Part shown: piece after piece, positions 6,300 to 45,657 of the stretch
Numbering within the stretch: the stretch's first letter is position 1
How the letters are laid out: the number at the start of each line of letters is the position of its first letter
Assembly: GCA_949298545.1 (NCBI GenBank)
Contig: CASFWX010000041.1
Span: 1 to 63,382 of the forward strand
Length of the DNA: 63,382 bases
Direction of reading: 5' to 3'
From: an uncultured Verrucomicrobiota bacterium
GTDB taxonomy: Bacteria > Verrucomicrobiota > Verrucomicrobiia > Opitutales > Intestinicryptomonadaceae
Made by a program: the position numbers and the translations under genes
The notes under the pieces: model-generated
Told to the model about the DNA's origin: nothing
The model's input: only the letters and a program-made list of their open reading frames with translations
The model's database searches: none

Positions 6300-7532
6300 A
6301 TGAGAATTTTGCATTACGATTGTTTTGCCGGGATTAGCGGAGATATGAATCTCGGGGCTTTGATAGATATCGGGGTTGATTCTAAAAAGCTTGTTGCCGA
6401 GCTCGAAAAATTGGGGATTGATTCATGGAAACTTTCGGTGTCGCGAGAGATGCGCGGCGGCTTGTCTGGAGTCAGGGTGAACGTAGAAACGCCGGAAACG
6501 CATGCCGGTTCGCACGGCGAAGGCCATAAACACTGCCACTTCCACAGAAGTTTTGCCGACATAAAAAAGATAATAGGAGCTTCTTCCCTTTCCGATTCGG
6601 TCAAATCCCGCGCTTTAACTATATTCTCATATTTGGCTGAAGCCGAGTCTTCCGTGCATGGGGTTTCTCCTGACGATGTCAGGTTTCACGAAGTGGGGGC
6701 GGTTGATTCGATTATAGACATCGTAGGTTGCGCCGTTTGCTACGAGCTTTTAAAAATAGATTCTGTCAGTTCCTCTGCCGTCGAGCTTGGCGGGGGGGTA
6801 GTCAGATGCGCGCACGGGCTCTTGCCGGTTCCGGCGCCGGCAACGGCGATATTGGCGAAGAAGTTTCCCTCTAAAATAAACGGGGCAATGCATGAGTGCA
6901 CGACTCCCACGGGGGCGGCAATAATAGCGGCCCTTGCGAAATCCTTTGATGCTCCGATATCCGGCAGGATTGCGGCGGTTGGGATAGGAATCGGTTCGCG
7001 CGATTTTCCTGAATTGCCTAACGCGCTAAGGGTTTTGCTTTACGATACGGAAGAAGCGTCTCCCTTTGGCGGCGGATATCCCGAAGGTTGTTCGGAAGAA
7101 ACTCTTATTGAGTTTGCCGCAAATATAGACGATATGAGCGCCGAGAGGATTTCGCATTTGTGCGGAAGCCTATTTGCCGCTTCCGCTCTTGATGTCTGGC
7201 AGGAGGGCATTTTTATGAAGAAGGGGCGCGCGGCGACTAAAGTTTGCGCGCTCGCAAGGCGGGAGGACTCAAAAAAAATATTGTCGGCGTATTTCGGGAA
7301 TTCTTCGACTTTGGGGGTTCGCTGCCGCGAGGTCTCAAGAATTTCTCTTGCGCGTGAATCTTTTTTTAAAAAAACCCCTTTCGGCGATCTTCGGGCAAAG
7401 CGGTCGTTTTTTAATGGCGTTGCCCGAGAGAAGATCGAGTTCGACGAGATTCGAAAGATAGCCGACGAGACTGGAATGGGAATGGAGGAGATATTGGGGA
7501 AAATCGGCGATGGCGAGCCAAAAGATAGATAG
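6300..7532 (+). CDS. larC: LarC, nickel-insertion enzyme for the nickel-pincer cofactor
   Basis: LarC is the CTP-dependent cyclometallase that inserts nickel into the pyridinium-3,5-bisthiocarboxylate mononucleotide. The 410-residue product opens with the family signature MRILHYDCFAGISGDM and continues with RFHEVGAVDSIIDIVG and HECTTPTGAAI. A histidine-rich stretch, HAGSHGEGHKHCHFH (about residues 63-77), is a likely nickel site. In Lactiplantibacillus plantarum the protein is made through a programmed frameshift (LarC1/LarC2). Here both halves are in one uninterrupted frame. It heads the operon larC-larE-larB and overlaps larE by 23 nt. No Shine-Dalgarno is apparent. No larA follows, so the client enzyme is elsewhere. 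Confidence 0.95.
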   Translation: MRILHYDCFAGISGDMNLGALIDIGVDSKKLVAELEKLGIDSWKLSVSREMRGGLSGVRVNVETPETHAGSHGEGHKHCHFHRSFADIKKIIGASSLSDSVKSRALTIFSYLAEAESSVHGVSPDDVRFHEVGAVDSIIDIVGCAVCYELLKIDSVSSSAVELGGGVVRCAHGLLPVPAPATAILAKKFPSKINGAMHECTTPTGAAIIAALAKSFDAPISGRIAAVGIGIGSRDFPELPNALRVLLYDTEEASPFGGGYPEGCSEETLIEFAANIDDMSAERISHLCGSLFAASALDVWQEGIFMKKGRAATKVCALARREDSKKILSAYFGNSSTLGVRCREVSRISLARESFFKKTPFGDLRAKRSFFNGVAREKIEFDEIRKIADETGMGMEEILGKIGDGEPKDR

Positions 7533-8313
7533 TTTGGCAGAGTTTATCGGCCGGTGCGGAAAGTTGGCGATAGCTCTCTCGGGCGGGGTTGACAGTTCCG
7601 CTCTTTTGGCATTTTGCGCGGCGCGATTTGGCGGGGAGAATTTTTTAGCCCTCTCCGCGCGCGCTCCCTATATTCCGCGCAGGGAAATGGAATACTCCCG
7701 CGAATTGTGCGCAAAACTCGGGGTCGAGCATGTTGAAATTGAGATGGAAATTCCAAATGGGGTTGAAAAAAATCCTCCTGACAGATGTTATATCTGCAAG
7801 CGCGCGATGTTTTCATCGTTATTTTCCGAACTTGCTTCACGCGGTTTCCAAAATCTTGCCGACGGCAGCAATGTCGACGACTTGTCGGATTGGCGCCCGG
7901 GAATGCGGGCTTTGAAGGAGCTGGGAGTGTTGAGCCCGTTTATAGAGTGCGGATTTTCAAAGGGCGATATTCGCTTGCTCGCGGAGTCTCTTTCTCTCGA
8001 ATGCGCCGACGCTCCGACGAATTCCTGTTTGCTGACGCGCCTCGATTTTGGGCGGGAATTGGAAGTGCAGACCCTTAGGAAGATAGAAAAGCTTGAAAAT
8101 TTTATAAAATCGCTTGGTTTTCCCCTGGTCAGGGTACGCTTGACGGGCGATCTTGCGCGGATAGAAGTATCCGAGGACAGGCTTAGCGATCTATCGGCGG
8201 GAGGCAGATGGGAAAAGGTGAGGCTTGAGGCGGAGAAAATGGGATTTCGCAGCGAGGAATCGCCGCGAGCTTACAAGCGGAGCTGGAAGGTGATGCAAAA
8301 TGAGATCGGTTAA
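7510..8313 (+). CDS. larE: LarE, ATP-dependent sulfur transferase
   Basis: LarE adenylates and thiolates the two carboxylates of the LarB product. The 267-residue protein has the PP-loop motif LSGGVDSS (residues 23-30). It also has Cys93 and Cys96 in DRCYICK and a further Cys173 in TNSCLLTR, which aligns with the sacrificial Cys of L. plantarum LarE. Having three cysteines suggests the cluster-binding type of LarE, in which an Fe-S cluster rather than the protein Cys may carry the sulfur; this is inference from family knowledge. The gene overlaps larC by 23 nt and larB by 14 nt, so translation is probably coupled. Confidence 0.94.
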   Translation: MASQKIDSLAEFIGRCGKLAIALSGGVDSSALLAFCAARFGGENFLALSARAPYIPRREMEYSRELCAKLGVEHVEIEMEIPNGVEKNPPDRCYICKRAMFSSLFSELASRGFQNLADGSNVDDLSDWRPGMRALKELGVLSPFIECGFSKGDIRLLAESLSLECADAPTNSCLLTRLDFGRELEVQTLRKIEKLENFIKSLGFPLVRVRLTGDLARIEVSEDRLSDLSAGGRWEKVRLEAEKMGFRSEESPRAYKRSWKVMQNEIG

Positions 8314-9037
8314 GGATATTTTAAAGATGTTAGCCGACGGCAGAATTAGCTTAGATGATGCCGAAAGCATGATATGTGGACTGCCTATAATAGAACTTGG
8401 GCATACCCGCATTGACGCCGACAGGCTTAGGCGAACGGGAATTGGCGAAGTTGTTTACGGCGCGGGGAAAACGCCGGAGCAAATAGTTGACATAGCTGGG
8501 GCGTTGCTTTCGTCGGGGCAGAGGTTCCTTGCTACCAGGCTTTCCGATTCTGCTGCGGCTGCGCTCAAAAAAGCTTTTCCTGAAATCGAAATAGACAGTT
8601 TTGCCGGCATTGCCAGAATGGGGAAAATCTCGCCCACCACGAAAACCAAGATTGCCATTGTCAGCGCGGGCACTTCCGATATGCGCGTCGCCGAGGAGGC
8701 GCGCTTGTGCGCCGAATTTTTCGGGAGCAGGGTCGAGACGTTTTATGATTGCGGGGTGGCGGGGCTTTCCAGGCTGTTGTCTTCAATAGATAAAATCCGC
8801 GAAGCGCGCGTCGTAATTGTTGTCGCTGGAATGGAAGGCGCGCTTGCGAGCGTTGTTGCGGGGCTTTTGAAAGCTCCGGTTATAGCTGTTCCCACGAGCG
8901 TAGGATACGGGGCAAACTTCGGCGGACTTTCAGCTCTGCTTTCGATGATAAACTCGTGCGCAAACGGAGTTAGCGTAGTCAATATCGACAACGGATTTGG
9001 GGCTGCATATAACGCCCACCTCATAAATTCCGCGTAA
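8300..9037 (+). CDS. larB: LarB, nicotinate adenine dinucleotide carboxylase/hydrolase
   Basis: LarB carries out the first step of nickel-pincer nucleotide synthesis. It carboxylates C5 of the nicotinate ring of NaAD and releases AMP. The 245-residue product has a short helical N-terminus (about 80 residues) and then a PurE-like domain: IAIVSAGTSDMRVAEEA, VVAGMEGALASVVAGL, and VIAVPTSVGYGANFGGLSALLSMINSC-type sequence with the PurE-fold glycine-rich loops. The C-terminus NIDNGFGAAY is typical of LarB. It is the last gene of the operon. The nadC gene at 28 kb belongs to the pathway that makes its precursor but is not linked. Confidence 0.95.
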   Translation: MRSVKDILKMLADGRISLDDAESMICGLPIIELGHTRIDADRLRRTGIGEVVYGAGKTPEQIVDIAGALLSSGQRFLATRLSDSAAAALKKAFPEIEIDSFAGIARMGKISPTTKTKIAIVSAGTSDMRVAEEARLCAEFFGSRVETFYDCGVAGLSRLLSSIDKIREARVVIVVAGMEGALASVVAGLLKAPVIAVPTSVGYGANFGGLSALLSMINSCANGVSVVNIDNGFGAAYNAHLINSA

Positions 9038-9265: not shown

Positions 9266-10981
9266 TTAGAAGGGGAATTCGTCGCTTTTTAGCGCGGGGG
9301 AATCTGTTTTTTCCGGAATGAACTTTCTCATTGATTCATTGAATTTCTTAGCCTGCCTGTGTTCGGCGAGCCCCCGCACGACAATCGCCCTGTGCGGCCG
9401 GACCGGGCAGACAAATTCGCACGCTCCGCAGCCGATGCACACGTTTGAATGCACAAACGGTATGTATAGGCTATTTTCCTTTTTCCCGAAAGGTACCATT
9501 TCTATAGCCTGAACGGGGCAGTGTTCGGCGCAGGCGGCGCAGTCGGTGCCGTCGGTATTCACCACGCATAAGTCTTTTTGGAATACGGCAGTGCCTATTT
9601 TGACTTTTTGTTTCTGGGGATTTGTCAGAAAATCTATCGCGCCGGTCGGGCAGACTTTTGTGCACGAGTGGCATGTGTAGAGGCAGAATCCCGATGAATA
9701 GTCCATAAACGGCTGCATAAATCCCGACAATCCCCATTCGCCGGCGGACGGTTTCAAGACCTGCGATTTGCATGCCGCCACGCAGGCTTGGCACGCCGTG
9801 CAATGCTCTAAAAAGTTTTCCACGCTTTTTGAGCCTGCCGGTACGCAAAGCCGTTTGTCTGCCCGCTCTCCTTTCAAGCCGTAGGGAGATGGAACGTCGT
9901 TTTCGGCTCCGCATTTTTCGCCGGAGCCGTTTTTTCTCAGCCGCATGCGTTTTGCAGCTTGGGCGTCGCTTTTTGCAGCCGATGAAAAGAGGGCTCCTAT
10001 ACCCACGGCGAGCGCTGGAAAAGCGCGGCGCGAAGCCGAGAAGCTTTTTTGGGCATTTACCGATGCCGGCTTTGGGGCGTTTGGTCCAGCGGAAGCTTTA
10101 TCCGTGCGTATTTTGCGCCTGAGAAAATCGTTAGGCACTATTTTTATCGCGTTTTTCGGACATTTTGAAGCGCAGTCAAAGCATAGCACGCAGCGCGAGA
10201 AATCCAGAGTTTTTTTCTTGGAGTCCATGCATTGCGTTTTGCAGTTGCGTTCGCACAGACCGCATGAAACGCACTTTTCCGGGGAGAATCCCAGCTTGAA
10301 GAGGGAAAATTTTGAAAGGAATCCCAGGAATGCGCCAACCGGACAAACAGTATTGCAGTAAAGCCTTCCGCGAATGGCTGAAACGATAGCTATCGCAAAC
10401 AGAATAAAAAGCGCAAATCCGAAAGCCGAAAGCGCCACGGAAGAGTCGCCGTCAACTGGGGATACTGCGTAAGCGCCGAAAGAGTACAGAATGTCTCCGA
10501 GCTCGTCAATCGATAGCCCGATTGTCGGATGAAAGACAGACCCCATAATTTTGCCGTACAGCGAATACGGGTCGATAATTCCCAAAAGGGCCGTATAACC
10601 GAAAGCAATTGCCGCGACGGCGAGAGCCAAAAATGCGGCACGGATATAATTGTGTGCCGGGGCGAATCGCATGCCTTTTTTCGGCCTTAAAGGCTTGCCG
10701 ATGCGCCGAAATATGTCCATTAGAATTCCAAAGGGACAGAAGAAAGAGCAATATGCGCGCCCGAAAATCAGGGCAAAAACGGTGAAAGTAACGAAGGCCG
10801 CGCCCGCCACGACGCTTCCCGTGGCGAGCATTTTCAAAAGGGACGGGGCAAATTGCGTCGCCGTCGGATTATACATGAAATACGGCTTTGGAAGCTTGTG
10901 GTAGGCGTCGAGAAATTGCGCGCTTATCAATACGAACACGGCAAGCGCTATAATAATCCGCAATATGCGCAATATTTTCAT
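9266..10981 (-). CDS. Membrane polyferredoxin, NapH-NapG-like fusion
   Basis: The 571-residue protein joins two parts. Residues 1-285 resemble NapH/NosR-type membrane ferredoxins: four or more hydrophobic helices, two CxxxCP motifs (YCSFFCPFG at 78-85 and YCNTVCPVG at 209-216), and two 4Fe-4S motifs (237-251 and 264-274). Residues 286-571 resemble NapG: an internal twin-arginine segment (SASRRAFPALAVGIGALFSS, about 315-334) ending in an AxA-like site, then clusters at 394-404, 437-444, 481-488 and 515-525. The likely role is passing electrons across the membrane; donor and acceptor are unknown. The gene lies 46 nt downstream of a Tat-signal DUF362 gene, and the two probably form one transcription unit. 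Confidence 0.9.
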   Translation of the reverse strand: MKILRILRIIIALAVFVLISAQFLDAYHKLPKPYFMYNPTATQFAPSLLKMLATGSVVAGAAFVTFTVFALIFGRAYCSFFCPFGILMDIFRRIGKPLRPKKGMRFAPAHNYIRAAFLALAVAAIAFGYTALLGIIDPYSLYGKIMGSVFHPTIGLSIDELGDILYSFGAYAVSPVDGDSSVALSAFGFALFILFAIAIVSAIRGRLYCNTVCPVGAFLGFLSKFSLFKLGFSPEKCVSCGLCERNCKTQCMDSKKKTLDFSRCVLCFDCASKCPKNAIKIVPNDFLRRKIRTDKASAGPNAPKPASVNAQKSFSASRRAFPALAVGIGALFSSAAKSDAQAAKRMRLRKNGSGEKCGAENDVPSPYGLKGERADKRLCVPAGSKSVENFLEHCTACQACVAACKSQVLKPSAGEWGLSGFMQPFMDYSSGFCLYTCHSCTKVCPTGAIDFLTNPQKQKVKIGTAVFQKDLCVVNTDGTDCAACAEHCPVQAIEMVPFGKKENSLYIPFVHSNVCIGCGACEFVCPVRPHRAIVVRGLAEHRQAKKFNESMRKFIPEKTDSPALKSDEFPF

Positions 10982-11027
10982 GTTTTTAGGATTTCTGGTT
11001 GCCGTGCTCTCAAAAAAACAACGCGTG

Positions 11028-11972
11028 TCAGGCTTGCATGCTTACGCGTTTCACGTTGAGCTTTGACAAGTCGGAAGTCCCGACTCCGAGCTTTTCCGCC
11101 GCGGCTATATATTTTATTTCGGACATCTTATATGGAACCCCTTTGCCGTATTCCTTTGCCACGCTTTCAAAGATTTTTACCGATGCGGCGTCGGCTGCAA
11201 CGATGTCGGTTGACAGGATCTGATATTTTACGATAGGAGCGTACGACGGATCCTTTCCTCTCGGACCATATTCGAGCATAACCCTATACGCGTCGACTAT
11301 CGTGAGAGTGGTCTTTTGAAATGTGGCGTAATCGGCTATGCATTGCGGCAGGTTGTTTCGGTGCCAGAATTGCCTGTCCCATATGCAGCCCATATAGTTT
11401 TTGAGTGCATTTGTTATTTTTGCGCCGCCGTGGTGCTTTAGGACAGGAATATTTATGAACGCGTCGCACTCAAAAGTGAGCGGATGCACCATGGCCTTTT
11501 TCAGAGAAACGCCTTTGGGTATATCTTTGGGGACATACATATTTTCGGTGTTTCCGGCTATCATTTTGCCTCCTGCGGATTCTACGGCTTTGGCTATGCC
11601 GCTCATTTTGTATCTGTTGTCCCAGTCGTTTCCGCAAGTGTGGTCGAAACAGAGGACCTCTTTGGCGCCAGCTTTAAAACATTCTTTTACGACTTCCGCG
11701 ACGAGTTCGGGGTTTGTGTTTGCACCCACTTCCGGAGGCTGGTCCCAGCCGATATTCGGCTTTATTGTGACTTTGTAGCCCTTCTTGACAAAGCGCTCCA
11801 TGCCGCCCATTTCGGCTATGCCCCTTTTGAACATTTCAACAGGCTCGCCCCCGCGAAGGGCAACCATATCGACCGGCCTATCCTGTTTTTCCTCTCCGAG
11901 GGCGGGGAAGGGTAGTAATGCGCCCGCGGCGGCGCCGAGGGCGGAAGATGCAACAAAATCACGTCTTTTCAT
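11028..11972 (-). CDS. DUF362 protein with Tat signal
   Basis: The 314-residue product starts with MKRRDFVASSALGAAAGALL, a twin-arginine (RRDF) export signal followed by a hydrophobic core and an ALG-like cleavage site. The mature part matches DUF362, with VTIKPNIGWDQPP, VLCFDHTCGND, and FINIPVLKHHGGAKITNALKNYMG. DUF362 proteins are often linked to Fe-S proteins, but I know of no established reaction for them. Tat export fits a folded, possibly cofactor-bearing periplasmic protein. It lies directly upstream of the polyferredoxin gene (46-nt gap), so the pair is probably a redox module. The ATG at 11972 is only 9 nt from a TATAAT sequence. Confidence 0.9.
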   Translation of the reverse strand: MKRRDFVASSALGAAAGALLPFPALGEEKQDRPVDMVALRGGEPVEMFKRGIAEMGGMERFVKKGYKVTIKPNIGWDQPPEVGANTNPELVAEVVKECFKAGAKEVLCFDHTCGNDWDNRYKMSGIAKAVESAGGKMIAGNTENMYVPKDIPKGVSLKKAMVHPLTFECDAFINIPVLKHHGGAKITNALKNYMGCIWDRQFWHRNNLPQCIADYATFQKTTLTIVDAYRVMLEYGPRGKDPSYAPIVKYQILSTDIVAADAASVKIFESVAKEYGKGVPYKMSEIKYIAAAEKLGVGTSDLSKLNVKRVSMQA

Positions 11973-34177: not shown

Positions 34178-35992
34178 ATGAAATACAAATGCAGAATATG
34201 CGGATATGTTTACGACGAATCGTCGGAGCCTAAAAAGTGGGATGCGCTTCCGCCCGATTGGACCTGTCCCGTCTGCGGGGCGCCGAAGGATTTGTTCGAC
34301 GCCGATTCGGGAGGTGCAGGAAATTCTGGAATTTTGGGTTCGCATGCGGGCGCGCCGGCGGCGCGCACGGCTTCCGACGTCGTTGCGGAGACGCTCTCTA
34401 ATTGGGGAGTAAAATGGGTGTTCGGAATGGTCGGCCATTCGAACCTTGGAATGGGCGACGCCGTGAGGAAGCTCGTTGATAGCGGGAAGATGGGATACAT
34501 TGGAATCAGGCACGAGGGGGCTGCGGCCTTCGCGTGTTCCGCCTATGGCAAGCTTTGCGGAAAGCCTGCCGCATGCCTCTCGATAGCCGGGCCCGGCGCG
34601 ACAAACATGTTCACCGGCCTATACGACGCAAAGCTCGATTCCTCGCCTGTAATTGCGCTCATGGGGCAAGTCCCGACGCGCGATTTGGGATTGGGAATAT
34701 TTCAGGAGACAAATCTCGAATCCGCTTTTTCTGATGCGGTTGTTTCCTCTCAAACCATGTTCGCAAAGTCGGATTTTTCTGCTTTGGCGTCTTCGGCGTG
34801 CCGCAAGGCAGTCTTAAACGGAGGAGTATCCCAAATAATAATGCCGGACGACATTCAAACCATGGAAGTGTCCGGCGACGCGGCGGCAGGTTCGCCTTCG
34901 GGGGAATTGTTTAGCGCTGGCGGCGGAGTTTCTCAGGAGAATTTGCTCCGGGCGGCAGAGCTTGTCAACTCCTCAAAAAAGCCGATGATAATTGCCGGTG
35001 CCGGCTGCTTCGATTGCGCCGGCGCCGTGGCGGAACTCGCCGGACACCTCAAATGCCCGGTAGCCACAACATATCGCGCCAAGGGGGTGCTGCCGGATTC
35101 TTTTGAATATTCGTGCGGAGTGATAGGGCGGAGCGGAACGGCTGTGTCGCAAAAGTTTGCCTCGGAGGCCGACTGCATAATAGGCATAGGAATAGGGTTC
35201 AGCAGGCATTCCGAAATTCCGAAGGGCGGGGCGAAAATTGTCCAGATAGATATCGATGCGCAAAGGATAGGGCGCCTTCGCAAAGTTGATGTGGGGATTG
35301 CCGGCGACGCGGCGGAGGCGGTGCCGGCTTTGATGGGCATGCTTGCCTCGCGCGAGGCAGATTCTTCAGGAGAAATAGCCGCGGAATGGTCGAAGTGGAG
35401 GGCGGAAAAGGCCGCCCGCGCGGAAAAGGGAAGGGACGGATCTCTTTCGCCGGCGGAGATATTTTCGGCTCTCTCCCAAATCGCGCCGCATGACGCGATA
35501 ATTTGCGCAGACGTTGGAAATGTCGCCTATTCGCTCGGAAGATATTTTGAGAGCGCCAAGCAGAGATTTTTGCTTTCGTGGTATCTCGGGTCTATAGGTT
35601 GCGGGCTTCCTTCCGCCATGGGCGCTTGGTGCGCGGCGCGGCAGGAAGGCGGAAAATTCTTCGGCAGGAAAATTGTGGCTGTAGTGGGCGACGGCGGACT
35701 CGGCCAGTATCTGTCCGAATGGACGACTGTCGTCAAGAACGAGATGGATATAAAGTGCGTTGTGCTCAACAATTCCGAGCTTGCGAAAATCTCCCGCGAG
35801 CAGGAAAACGCAAAGATGGGCGTTTGGCAAACTTCGCTCCTCAATCCCGATTTTGCAGAGTATTCCCGCTTGTGCGGAGGAATGGGCATCAGGATAGAAA
35901 AGAGGTCTGAGCTGTTTGAAAAGCTAAGAGAAGCCTTCTCATGCGGCGGGCCGTGCATGGTTGATATTTTAACTGACCCGGATTTGCAGTAA
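34178..35992 (+). CDS. Rubredoxin-thiamine pyrophosphate enzyme fusion
   Basis: The 604-residue protein has an N-terminal rubredoxin-like module (CRICGYVYDE at 5-14, CPVCGAPKDLF at 30-40) and a three-domain TPP enzyme of the acetolactate synthase/pyruvate oxidase type. The TPP activator Glu lies in IRHEGAAAFACSAYGKLCGKP. The middle domain has VATTYRAKGVLPDS, and the C-terminal TPP site has VVGDGGLGQYLSEWTT and LNNSELAKISREQE. The Cys-to-Cys spacing of the rubredoxin is 21 residues, shorter than the classical 29 or so. The reaction is probably a decarboxylation or oxidation of pyruvate or a related 2-oxo acid, with the iron site carrying electrons; this is inference. It follows TIGR03790 by 22 nt. 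Confidence 0.88.
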   Translation: MKYKCRICGYVYDESSEPKKWDALPPDWTCPVCGAPKDLFDADSGGAGNSGILGSHAGAPAARTASDVVAETLSNWGVKWVFGMVGHSNLGMGDAVRKLVDSGKMGYIGIRHEGAAAFACSAYGKLCGKPAACLSIAGPGATNMFTGLYDAKLDSSPVIALMGQVPTRDLGLGIFQETNLESAFSDAVVSSQTMFAKSDFSALASSACRKAVLNGGVSQIIMPDDIQTMEVSGDAAAGSPSGELFSAGGGVSQENLLRAAELVNSSKKPMIIAGAGCFDCAGAVAELAGHLKCPVATTYRAKGVLPDSFEYSCGVIGRSGTAVSQKFASEADCIIGIGIGFSRHSEIPKGGAKIVQIDIDAQRIGRLRKVDVGIAGDAAEAVPALMGMLASREADSSGEIAAEWSKWRAEKAARAEKGRDGSLSPAEIFSALSQIAPHDAIICADVGNVAYSLGRYFESAKQRFLLSWYLGSIGCGLPSAMGAWCAARQEGGKFFGRKIVAVVGDGGLGQYLSEWTTVVKNEMDIKCVVLNNSELAKISREQENAKMGVWQTSLLNPDFAEYSRLCGGMGIRIEKRSELFEKLREAFSCGGPCMVDILTDPDLQ

Positions 35993-43974: not shown

Positions 43975-45657
43975 ATGGCTATCGATACGGCTTTTGTCTT
44001 GGCCGCGGGCCGCGGAGAGCGCCTGTCTCCGCTTACGGACGCGCTCCCAAAACCGCTCCTTCCGCTGGCGGGCAAGCCCGCCGTCTGCCATGTTTTCGAT
44101 TCACTAATCGCCGCTGGCGTGGGCAGAATAATTTTGAACGTCCATCATCTGGCGGGCAAATTTCCTGAAGTCCTGGGGGGCGAATATAGAGGGGTTAAAA
44201 TTGAATACGTCAAGGAGCCCGAATTGCTGGATACTGGCGGAGGGATAAAAAATATCCTATCCCGCATCGATACATCAAAACCGCTTATCGTCCACAACGG
44301 CGACATATTTTTCGACGCTCCGCTTTCGGATTTTGCCGGCGCGGCGGAATCGCTTTTCAGGAAGGATAAGAAAATATCGGCGGCGCTGTGCCTCAGAAGG
44401 GAGGGGAAGCTGAAAAACGTGGCGGTGCGCTCGGGGAAGGTTGTTGATATGCGTTTTACGACCGGAGAAACGGGCGATGCAGTGGCGCAGTACGCCGGGG
44501 TTTTTGCGGCTTTCCCTCCGCTGTTTCCGCTGCTTGAAAAAAATCCGAAATCATCTTTCCCGATAGTTGATACCTTTGTGGAATCAATAAAGTCGGATAT
44601 TGGAAGCGTCGCCGGGATATTTGAGGACCGCGGGCTTTGGGGGGACATTGGAACGCCAGAATCATATGCGGATTTAAACAGCAGCTTCGGCGACAAAGGC
44701 GATTTCTACCGCATCGCAAAGCTCAAATGCTTGGGGTTTCACGCAGACGCTTTTGTCCCGATAGCCAAAGGCGCTTCAACGAGGGAATTTTTTTCATTCA
44801 AAGACAGATCGCGCCGCGGACGCAAACTTGTGGCGTGCTTTTATTCCAAAGAAAAGCTCGAAGATTCTTTTTATGCGGATATCGCCTCTTACCTATATTC
44901 GCAGGGCATTTCCGTCCCGGAGGTGCTTTTCCATGACGCTTCGGAGAGAATAATCGTGATGGAAAGCGCGGGAGACCTGGATTTAAGCTCCCTTTCCGGA
45001 AAGTTGCGTTCGGAAGCCTACCTGCAAACCGCCCGCATTGCCCGCGATTTGCACACGCGCGTGACGCACAATTTTCTTTCGGCAGACTCTCCCCCCATTC
45101 CGCTCAATCCCCCGTTTGACGAGGAGCTTTATGCATGGGAGAGGCGGTATTTTCTCGAGGAGTGCGTGCTCGGGCGATTTGGAATAGCTTGCCCAGGCGT
45201 TTCAGATTCGGAATTTGCGGAGATCTCCAGCACACTTTTAGGCGGGGAACAATGCCTTGTGCATAGGGACTTGCAATCCCAGAACGTCATGATATCCGAA
45301 ACGGGAAAAGCTTCGCTGATAGACTTTCAGGGAATGAGAATGGGTTGCGGAATGTACGATGTCGCCTCTTTGATTTTCGATCCGTATGCGGAGCTTTCGG
45401 AATGCGAGCGGTCTGGAATATTGGAGGCGTATTTCGGGCGGGAAGCGTCGAAGCGTGAGCGGAGAGCGCTGTACATCGCCGCTTGCCAGAGGCTGATGCA
45501 GGCTCTGGGCGCCTACGGATTCCTTTCGATAAAGAAAGGAATGCCGCGCTACGGCAAGTATTTTAAGCCCGCGCTCGTGAGGCTTTGTTTTTGCGCGTCG
45601 AAAAGCGGGCTTTGCGGGCTGTCGTCGCTTGCGGAAAGATGTTTGAAAATCCTATAA
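43975..45657 (+). CDS. Bifunctional MurU-AmgK: MurNAc-1-P uridylyltransferase and MurNAc/GlcNAc kinase
   Basis: The 560-residue protein joins two enzymes. Residues 1-240 are a nucleotidyltransferase with LAAGRGERLSPLTDALPKP (signature Lys at 23) and NGDIFF, like MurU. Residues 255-560 are an aminoglycoside-phosphotransferase-fold kinase with VHRDLQSQNV and LIDFQGMRMG, like AmgK. In Pseudomonas these are separate proteins that phosphorylate anomeric MurNAc and make UDP-MurNAc, bypassing the MurA step blocked by fosfomycin. This suggests peptidoglycan sugar recycling here, in one polypeptide with the order reversed. The specificity is inferred from the domain pair. It follows the dUTPase-like gene by 21 nt. 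Confidence 0.86.
   Translation: MAIDTAFVLAAGRGERLSPLTDALPKPLLPLAGKPAVCHVFDSLIAAGVGRIILNVHHLAGKFPEVLGGEYRGVKIEYVKEPELLDTGGGIKNILSRIDTSKPLIVHNGDIFFDAPLSDFAGAAESLFRKDKKISAALCLRREGKLKNVAVRSGKVVDMRFTTGETGDAVAQYAGVFAAFPPLFPLLEKNPKSSFPIVDTFVESIKSDIGSVAGIFEDRGLWGDIGTPESYADLNSSFGDKGDFYRIAKLKCLGFHADAFVPIAKGASTREFFSFKDRSRRGRKLVACFYSKEKLEDSFYADIASYLYSQGISVPEVLFHDASERIIVMESAGDLDLSSLSGKLRSEAYLQTARIARDLHTRVTHNFLSADSPPIPLNPPFDEELYAWERRYFLEECVLGRFGIACPGVSDSEFAEISSTLLGGEQCLVHRDLQSQNVMISETGKASLIDFQGMRMGCGMYDVASLIFDPYAELSECERSGILEAYFGREASKRERRALYIAACQRLMQALGAYGFLSIKKGMPRYGKYFKPALVRLCFCASKSGLCGLSSLAERCLKIL

Follow-up and report, generated by a model that had tools for sequence, protein, structure and literature searches.

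A Tat-exported DUF362 protein with a modelled LarA fold, encoded beside a polyferredoxin and the lar genes, is a probable nickel-pincer nucleotide oxidoreductase

We analysed a pair of adjacent genes, encoding an exported protein of the DUF362 family and a membrane-bound polyferredoxin, in a stretch of 63,382 nucleotides from an uncultured Opitutales bacterium of the Verrucomicrobiota (contig CASFWX010000041.1 of assembly GCA_949298545.1; the whole stretch is referred to here as the window). The DUF362 protein was modelled with the fold of LarA, retains invariant residues that align with the LarA cofactor site, and is encoded next to larC, larE and larB, which constitute a complete pathway to the nickel-pincer nucleotide (NPN) cofactor. 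We consider it probable that this protein is a periplasmic oxidoreductase that depends on NPN and is wired through the polyferredoxin to the quinone pool; we strongly infer that it uses NPN, and infer that its net chemistry is redox. Gene content, the fold of the model, the invariant His/Lys/His residues, the pairing of the two genes, their linkage to lar genes and the mutual exclusion of larBC and a transporter S component are computed results.

Approximately 15% of genomes, including most cyanobacteria, carry larBCE in the absence of larA, which has been stated as an open question (PMC11796402). DUF362 is a concrete, testable candidate for the NPN proteins expected in such bacteria. The five genes concerned are as follows.

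11028-11972, minus strand: DUF362 protein, 314 amino acids (Pfam PF04015, E 8e-47)
9266-10981, minus strand: single-chain polyferredoxin of the NapH-NapG type, 571 amino acids (ferredoxin families plus NapH and NapG models)
6300-7532, plus strand: larC, nickel insertion, one uninterrupted frame (PF01969, E 7e-125; TIGR00299 and NF052512 above cut-off)
7510-8313, plus strand: larE, sacrificial sulfur transferase (TIGR00268, E 1e-69, above cut-off)
8300-9037, plus strand: larB, pyridinium carboxylase (NF033503, E 5e-85, above cut-off)

The fold and putative cofactor site of the DUF362 protein

The DUF362 protein scored 160.3 bits against a curated PF04015 cut-off of 24. An AlphaFold2 model of 287 residues, built from a 57-sequence alignment, had a predicted local distance difference test score (pLDDT) of 95.8 and a predicted template modelling score of 0.94. 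All 18 Foldseek matches to this model at E<=0.001 were LarA-family chains (E 1.7e-6 to 4e-4), and VIA comparison with LarA-family structures gave Z 16-19 with a root-mean-square deviation of ~3 over ~218 residues, the next unrelated structure having Z 5.3. The model shows that the DUF362 protein has a LarA fold, although the sequence is too distant for standard models to detect the relationship; a shared fold by itself proves no function. DUF362 and DUF2088, the LarA family, belong to one Pfam clan, CL0471, and DUF362 has served as an outgroup in work on LarA, which assigned it no cofactor (PMC11770544). No function for DUF362 was assigned in the literature that we found, and no paper in the openly licensed literature was found to assign NPN to it.

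The segments of the DUF362 gene on which the functional argument draws are listed below.

11892-11972, minus strand: N-terminal twin-arginine signal MKRRDFV..., residues 1-27 (end approximate), with a hydrophobic stretch after the motif
11430-11432, minus strand: codon of His181, predicted counterpart of the catalytic LarA His174 (invariant; from the alignment of a LarA profile with other DUF362 proteins)
11400-11402, minus strand: codon of Lys191, predicted counterpart of LarA Lys184, the site of covalent NPN attachment (invariant; +10 from the His, as in LarA)
11361-11363, minus strand: codon of His204, predicted counterpart of the LarA nickel ligand His200 (invariant; from the alignment of a LarA profile with ferredoxin-type DUF362 proteins)

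The three residues H181, K191 and H204 were invariant in 104/104 proteins of the twin-arginine translocation (Tat) subfamily to which the window protein belongs and in 23/23 other DUF362 proteins. In LarA, the motif PH-x9-K-x15-H carries H174, K184 and H200; the spacing in the window subfamily is H181-x9-K191-x12-H204, so that the loop before the nickel-ligand His is three residues shorter. The only direct sequence match between the window subfamily and solved structures was to a Tat leader. Because comparison with the LarA profile was not significant, we relied on the fold search and on a hidden Markov model (HMM) route through the ferredoxin-type DUF362 proteins. An HMM made from LarA proteins aligned PHfmaGfSGGrKsvlPG...H onto these proteins with identical spacing (E ~4e-4), and the Pfam Lar_N model independently matched the same stretch with E down to 2.9e-5. 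Through this alignment, K191 and H204 are the predicted counterparts of the NPN-attachment Lys and the nickel-ligand His.

In the ferredoxin-type proteins (L007, L011, L013 and similar), the His aligned with the nickel ligand is followed immediately by an inserted dicluster ferredoxin domain, which from this position could feed electrons to bound NPN. The Tat-type protein of the window has no such insert and is accompanied by a separate polyferredoxin instead.

The polyferredoxin and the linkage of the pair to lar genes

The DUF362 gene lies upstream of the polyferredoxin gene with a gap of 46 bp, and the pair converges with larC-larE-larB, whose overlapping frames are operon-like, with 228 bp between the stop codons. 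The original prediction, made from the sequence of the window, had placed both reading frames correctly, had described the upstream gene as encoding a DUF362 protein with its own RRDF Tat signal, and had described the polyferredoxin as a NapH half joined to a NapG half with a pair of arginines (RR), found exactly at residues 318-319. Its account of the pair stood; what it overlooked was the adjoining larC-larE-larB, the most informative neighbour. Within the Tat signal, R3, R4 and F6 were invariant among 24 aligned relatives.

The polyferredoxin divides into three parts.

10112-10981, minus strand: NapH-like half, with four transmembrane segments, two CxxxCP motifs and two 4Fe-4S motifs expected to be cytosolic
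9962-10042, minus strand: internal twin-arginine segment (RR 318-319) and weakly hydrophobic fifth helix
9269-9961, minus strand: NapG-like half, with four 4Fe-4S motifs expected to be periplasmic

Ahead of RR 318-319 are two CxxCxxCxxxC motifs and four segments of strong hydrophobicity, and after it a weak hydrophobic segment (residues 320-338) followed by four more cluster motifs. The hydropathy of the 320-338 helix is 1.26, compared to 2.1-2.75 for the four Sec helices, and the helix is followed by KRMRLRK. Fused halves, an RR directly before a weak last transmembrane helix and positive charges together make up the layout of Sec/Tat dual insertion, and almost every relative of the polyferredoxin also has an internal RR at the NapH/NapG join. 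Scores against the NapH and NapG equivalog models (71 and 68 bits) did not reach the cut-offs of 213 to 269. The MLMS-1 polyferredoxin is likewise a NapH-NapG fusion, and was Tat-dependent by reporter fusions (PMC5449189); a single chain with an internal Tat motif is therefore no new design, and the C-terminal half of the window polyferredoxin is likewise predicted to be translocated by Tat. A cytosolic location of the C-terminal clusters, which would contradict the original prediction, is not what the motifs, the hydrophobicity and the published homologue (PMC5449189) suggest; all three point to the periplasm. The electron path from membrane to periplasm that it had proposed, ending in a DUF362 enzyme, is supported by this layout, by the conserved Tat motifs, by a neighbouring tatC in relatives and by the pairing of the genes.

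In some Akkermansia-like polyferredoxins (L040, L064, L072, L031, L042), the internal Tat helix is followed by LSGC or LSSC, which resembles a lipobox. The periplasmic half of these proteins might be cleaved off and lipid-anchored.

The expectation that the two genes travel together was borne out, with both present in the same order in 73 of 80 related loci; some of the remaining loci are on short contigs. Separate NapH-like and NapG-like genes take the place of the single-chain polyferredoxin in L131 and L137, and the NapG-like product has its own RR signal. TatC is encoded in the host genome, and several relatives have tatC immediately upstream of the pair. As a rule the two genes stand by themselves, and no third enzyme is conserved within 10 kb of them. 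As clues to a substrate, tgt and LptFG (in Tannerellaceae) and antisense reading frames were considered and set aside.

Linkage of the pair to lar genes recurs in three phyla, namely Verrucomicrobiota (the window, L038, L058, L074), Bacteroidota (L099, L137, L144) and Gammaproteobacteria (L118). Three of these loci are operon-like: DUF362-polyferredoxin-larC-larE-larB in L118 (Competibacteraceae), DUF362-NapH-NapG-larC-larB in L137 (Saccharicrinis) and DUF362-polyferredoxin-larB-larC-larE in L038. In L074, L099 and L144 the pair and the lar genes are divergent or convergent neighbours. Outside the phylum sample, linkage was present in 5/23 larC-containing genomes with the pair (binomial p ~2e-6 if genomes are independent). 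A second exported DUF362 subfamily is encoded immediately upstream of larB-larC-larE (L034-L037).

Co-occurrence with larC and a candidate salvage route

Among 115 genomes of the phylum, larC was present in 44/48 genomes that carry the window subfamily and in 29/67 that do not (p 5e-8; p 0.003 at genus level), whereas full-length LarA showed no association with larC in the same genomes (p 0.8). DUF362 was found in 55/59 larC-containing phylum genomes without full-length LarA. The host assembly (1.88 Mb, 112 contigs, 92.5% complete) encodes exactly one DUF362 protein and has no LarA match (none to PF09861 at E<=0.001). LarB, LarC and DUF362 without a LarA match were also found in two control genomes, those of Synechococcus elongatus and Haloferax volcanii. 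A family-wide equivalence of DUF362 with larC presence was rejected, as each occurs without the other. Five genomes (G016, G031, G061, G097, G107) have full-length LarA with no LarC match and no LarB above cut-off, and may depend on cofactor uptake or be incomplete assemblies.

The possibility that loss of larBC is accompanied by loss of the His and Lys residues was also rejected, the residues being invariant either way, and genes for salvage of the cofactor were therefore sought. In many genomes with the pair and without larC, a small membrane protein with no Pfam or NCBIfam match is encoded directly beside DUF362. The model of one family of these proteins, A4, was of moderate quality (pLDDT 79) and best matched S components of energy-coupling factor (ECF) transporters (VIA Z 10.5-14.9; next 9.4); its Foldseek matches were weak, yet the best 8/8 were S components. 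Since profile comparison of A4 with a second family, A5 (cluster 8), was not significant, the label S-like for A5 reflects only its size, position and membrane character. Neither family had a sequence match in the PDB. Counted genome-wide, A4 was present in 11/27 larC-minus and 0/23 larC-plus genomes with the pair (p 4e-4; p 0.014 within Bacteroidota), and A4 and A5 together, with A5 counted by position, in 16/27 and 0/23. The same alternation was seen in four Paludibacter genomes: two have larC and no A4, the other two A4 and no larC. Such exclusion is the usual signature of cofactor synthesis replaced by uptake, and we propose that the S component carries NPN or the pyridine base of NPN. A phosphoribosyltransferase (PF00156) often comes after A4, and some genomes have a TonB receptor next to A4; in an Opitutales genome without larBC, the polyferredoxin, an S-like reading frame and a phosphoribosyltransferase stand in a row.

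Tat-exported aldo/keto reductases (PF00248) adjoin larB in two genomes with larBCE and no LarA or DUF362 match (L070:7652-8656 and L071:11177-12190, in G001 and G108), and may be NPN clients of a second kind. Two larC-less Bacteroides genomes, those of L097 and L121, have second loci (L188:338-6105, L189:17-5819) that contain in a row a polyferredoxin, a Tat-exported aldo/keto reductase with a ferredoxin domain, DUF1893, a TonB receptor and the A4 S component. In these few genomes (L070, L071 and the two Bacteroides), larBCE and A4 again appear to be alternatives beside an exported redox enzyme.

Proposed mechanism, alternatives and relation to known systems

In the mechanism that we propose, LarB, LarE and LarC of the adjoining operon would make NPN from nicotinic acid adenine dinucleotide, the cofactor would be loaded in the cytosol on Lys191, His204 would complete the coordination of the nickel, and Tat would export the holoenzyme in folded form. 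The 4Fe-4S clusters of the polyferredoxin, two on the cytosolic side and four in the periplasm, would carry electrons between the enzyme and the quinone pool. NPN would donate hydride to, or accept it from, a substrate with a carbonyl or alcohol group, His181 acting as acid/base, and the enzyme would be a net oxidoreductase rather than a racemase. NPN would stand in for NAD(P)H, absent from the periplasm. Quinol-dependent reduction is the favoured direction of electron flow, because of the analogy with NapGH. Many relatives that lack larBC would instead import NPN or the pyridine base via the ECF S component, with the phosphoribosyltransferase encoded beside it.

Several results weigh against this proposal. 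The association of the subfamily with larC fell to p 0.07 at family level, and outside the phylum sample larC was absent from 27/50 and larB from 26/50 genomes with the pair, the active-site residues being equally invariant in those without larC. In about ten of these 27 no S component was found, and some of them may be incomplete assemblies. G080, G095 and G099 carry the window subfamily without larB or larC. LarB and LarC also occur in the absence of both LarA and DUF362, in Corynebacterium glutamicum and Methanocaldococcus jannaschii, and DUF362 therefore cannot be the whole answer. A LarA could also have been missed in the incomplete host assembly. With respect to the protein itself, hhalign comparison of narrow DUF362 and LarA alignments was not significant, and that of a broad set gave a weak collinear match (E 0.013, probability 3%). 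Since there is also no PF09861 match, we do not file the DUF362 protein as a LarA, and claim that it works like one. Finally, position 111, which may correspond to LarA His108, varies: of 104 sequences, 73 have H there and 26 have N. Some true LarA homologues keep only one of the two catalytic His residues (PMC12611868).

The LarA fold and NPN-site residues would also suit a periplasmic NPN racemase or epimerase like LarA, in which the polyferredoxin only reduces or reactivates the cofactor or shields it against oxidation. Known LarA homologues racemize 2-hydroxy acids without outside electrons (PMC11770544), and the cofactor of LarA_Lp was redox-sensitive in published sulfite-adduct work. However, LarA works without an electron partner, the putative second catalytic His varies here, and a six-cluster polyferredoxin in 73/80 loci, together with the ferredoxin insert next to the active site of other DUF362 proteins, fits stoichiometric electron use better. 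We regard a racemase as unlikely.

The protein could alternatively have a LarA-like fold and hold another cofactor, for example a nucleotide or small molecule at the Lys/His site, with the lar link regulatory or incidental. That about half of the pair genomes outside the phylum sample lack larB or larC yet keep the same residues is consistent with this, as is the non-significant hhalign comparison. The repetition of lar linkage in three phyla, the co-occurrence of the subfamily with larC where LarA shows none, and the mutual exclusion of larBC and the S component all argue against a different cofactor, which we likewise consider unlikely. It is very improbable that the pair is a redox relay or maturation module in the service of a different exported enzyme, DUF362 being not the catalyst but an NPN carrier or electron adaptor: NapGH itself only passes electrons to another enzyme (PMC5449189) and the Tat-exported aldo/keto reductase near the polyferredoxin and S component offers a second candidate client, but the pair usually has no conserved third enzyme nearby, and H181 and K191 show the invariance of catalytic residues.

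If the DUF362 protein is indeed an NPN oxidoreductase, NPN would have a new use, carrying hydride outside the cytoplasm in connection with the respiratory chain, and a route by which NPN is salvaged is predicted. More tentatively, and with rather less than even confidence, the whole DUF362 family may be the missing non-LarA user of NPN, also in cyanobacteria and haloarchaea that have larBCE and lack LarA. In its exported members NPN would be a tethered carrier of hydride for extracytoplasmic reactions linked to an electron chain, and bacteria unable to make NPN would salvage it, in a B12-like manner, through an outer-membrane TonB receptor, the ECF S component and a phosphoribosyltransferase.

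Two further window genes were noted by eye only. One, at 34178-35992 (plus strand), appears to fuse a rubredoxin-like N-terminus (CRICGYVYDE...CPVCGAPK) to a thiamine-diphosphate enzyme, and the other, at 43975-45657 (plus strand), fuses sugar nucleotidyltransferase-like and phosphotransferase-like halves in a MurU-AmgK-like arrangement.

The polyferredoxin design and DUF362 as a family of unknown function are known already; DUF362 as an NPN-dependent, exported enzyme wired to an electron chain, and the candidate salvage route, are new as far as the literature shows. The DUF362 protein resembles LarA in its fold, in the His-x9-Lys and downstream His, and in its genomic link to larB, larC and larE, and differs in being Tat-exported, smaller (287 residues modelled compared to ~420), paired with a polyferredoxin and variable at the putative His108 counterpart. 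For the polyferredoxin, the nearest known systems are the dual-inserted MLMS-1 type and the NapGH quinol dehydrogenase; the likeness lies in NapH and NapG halves joined in one chain with RR before a weak fifth helix. It has two cytosolic cluster motifs where three were reported for MLMS-1, and, unlike NapGH, it has no nitrate reductase partner, its partner being DUF362. The A4 proteins, found in relatives and not in the window, are modelled with the S-component fold of the ECF vitamin transporters (RibU, HmpT/PanT, BioY, ThiT).

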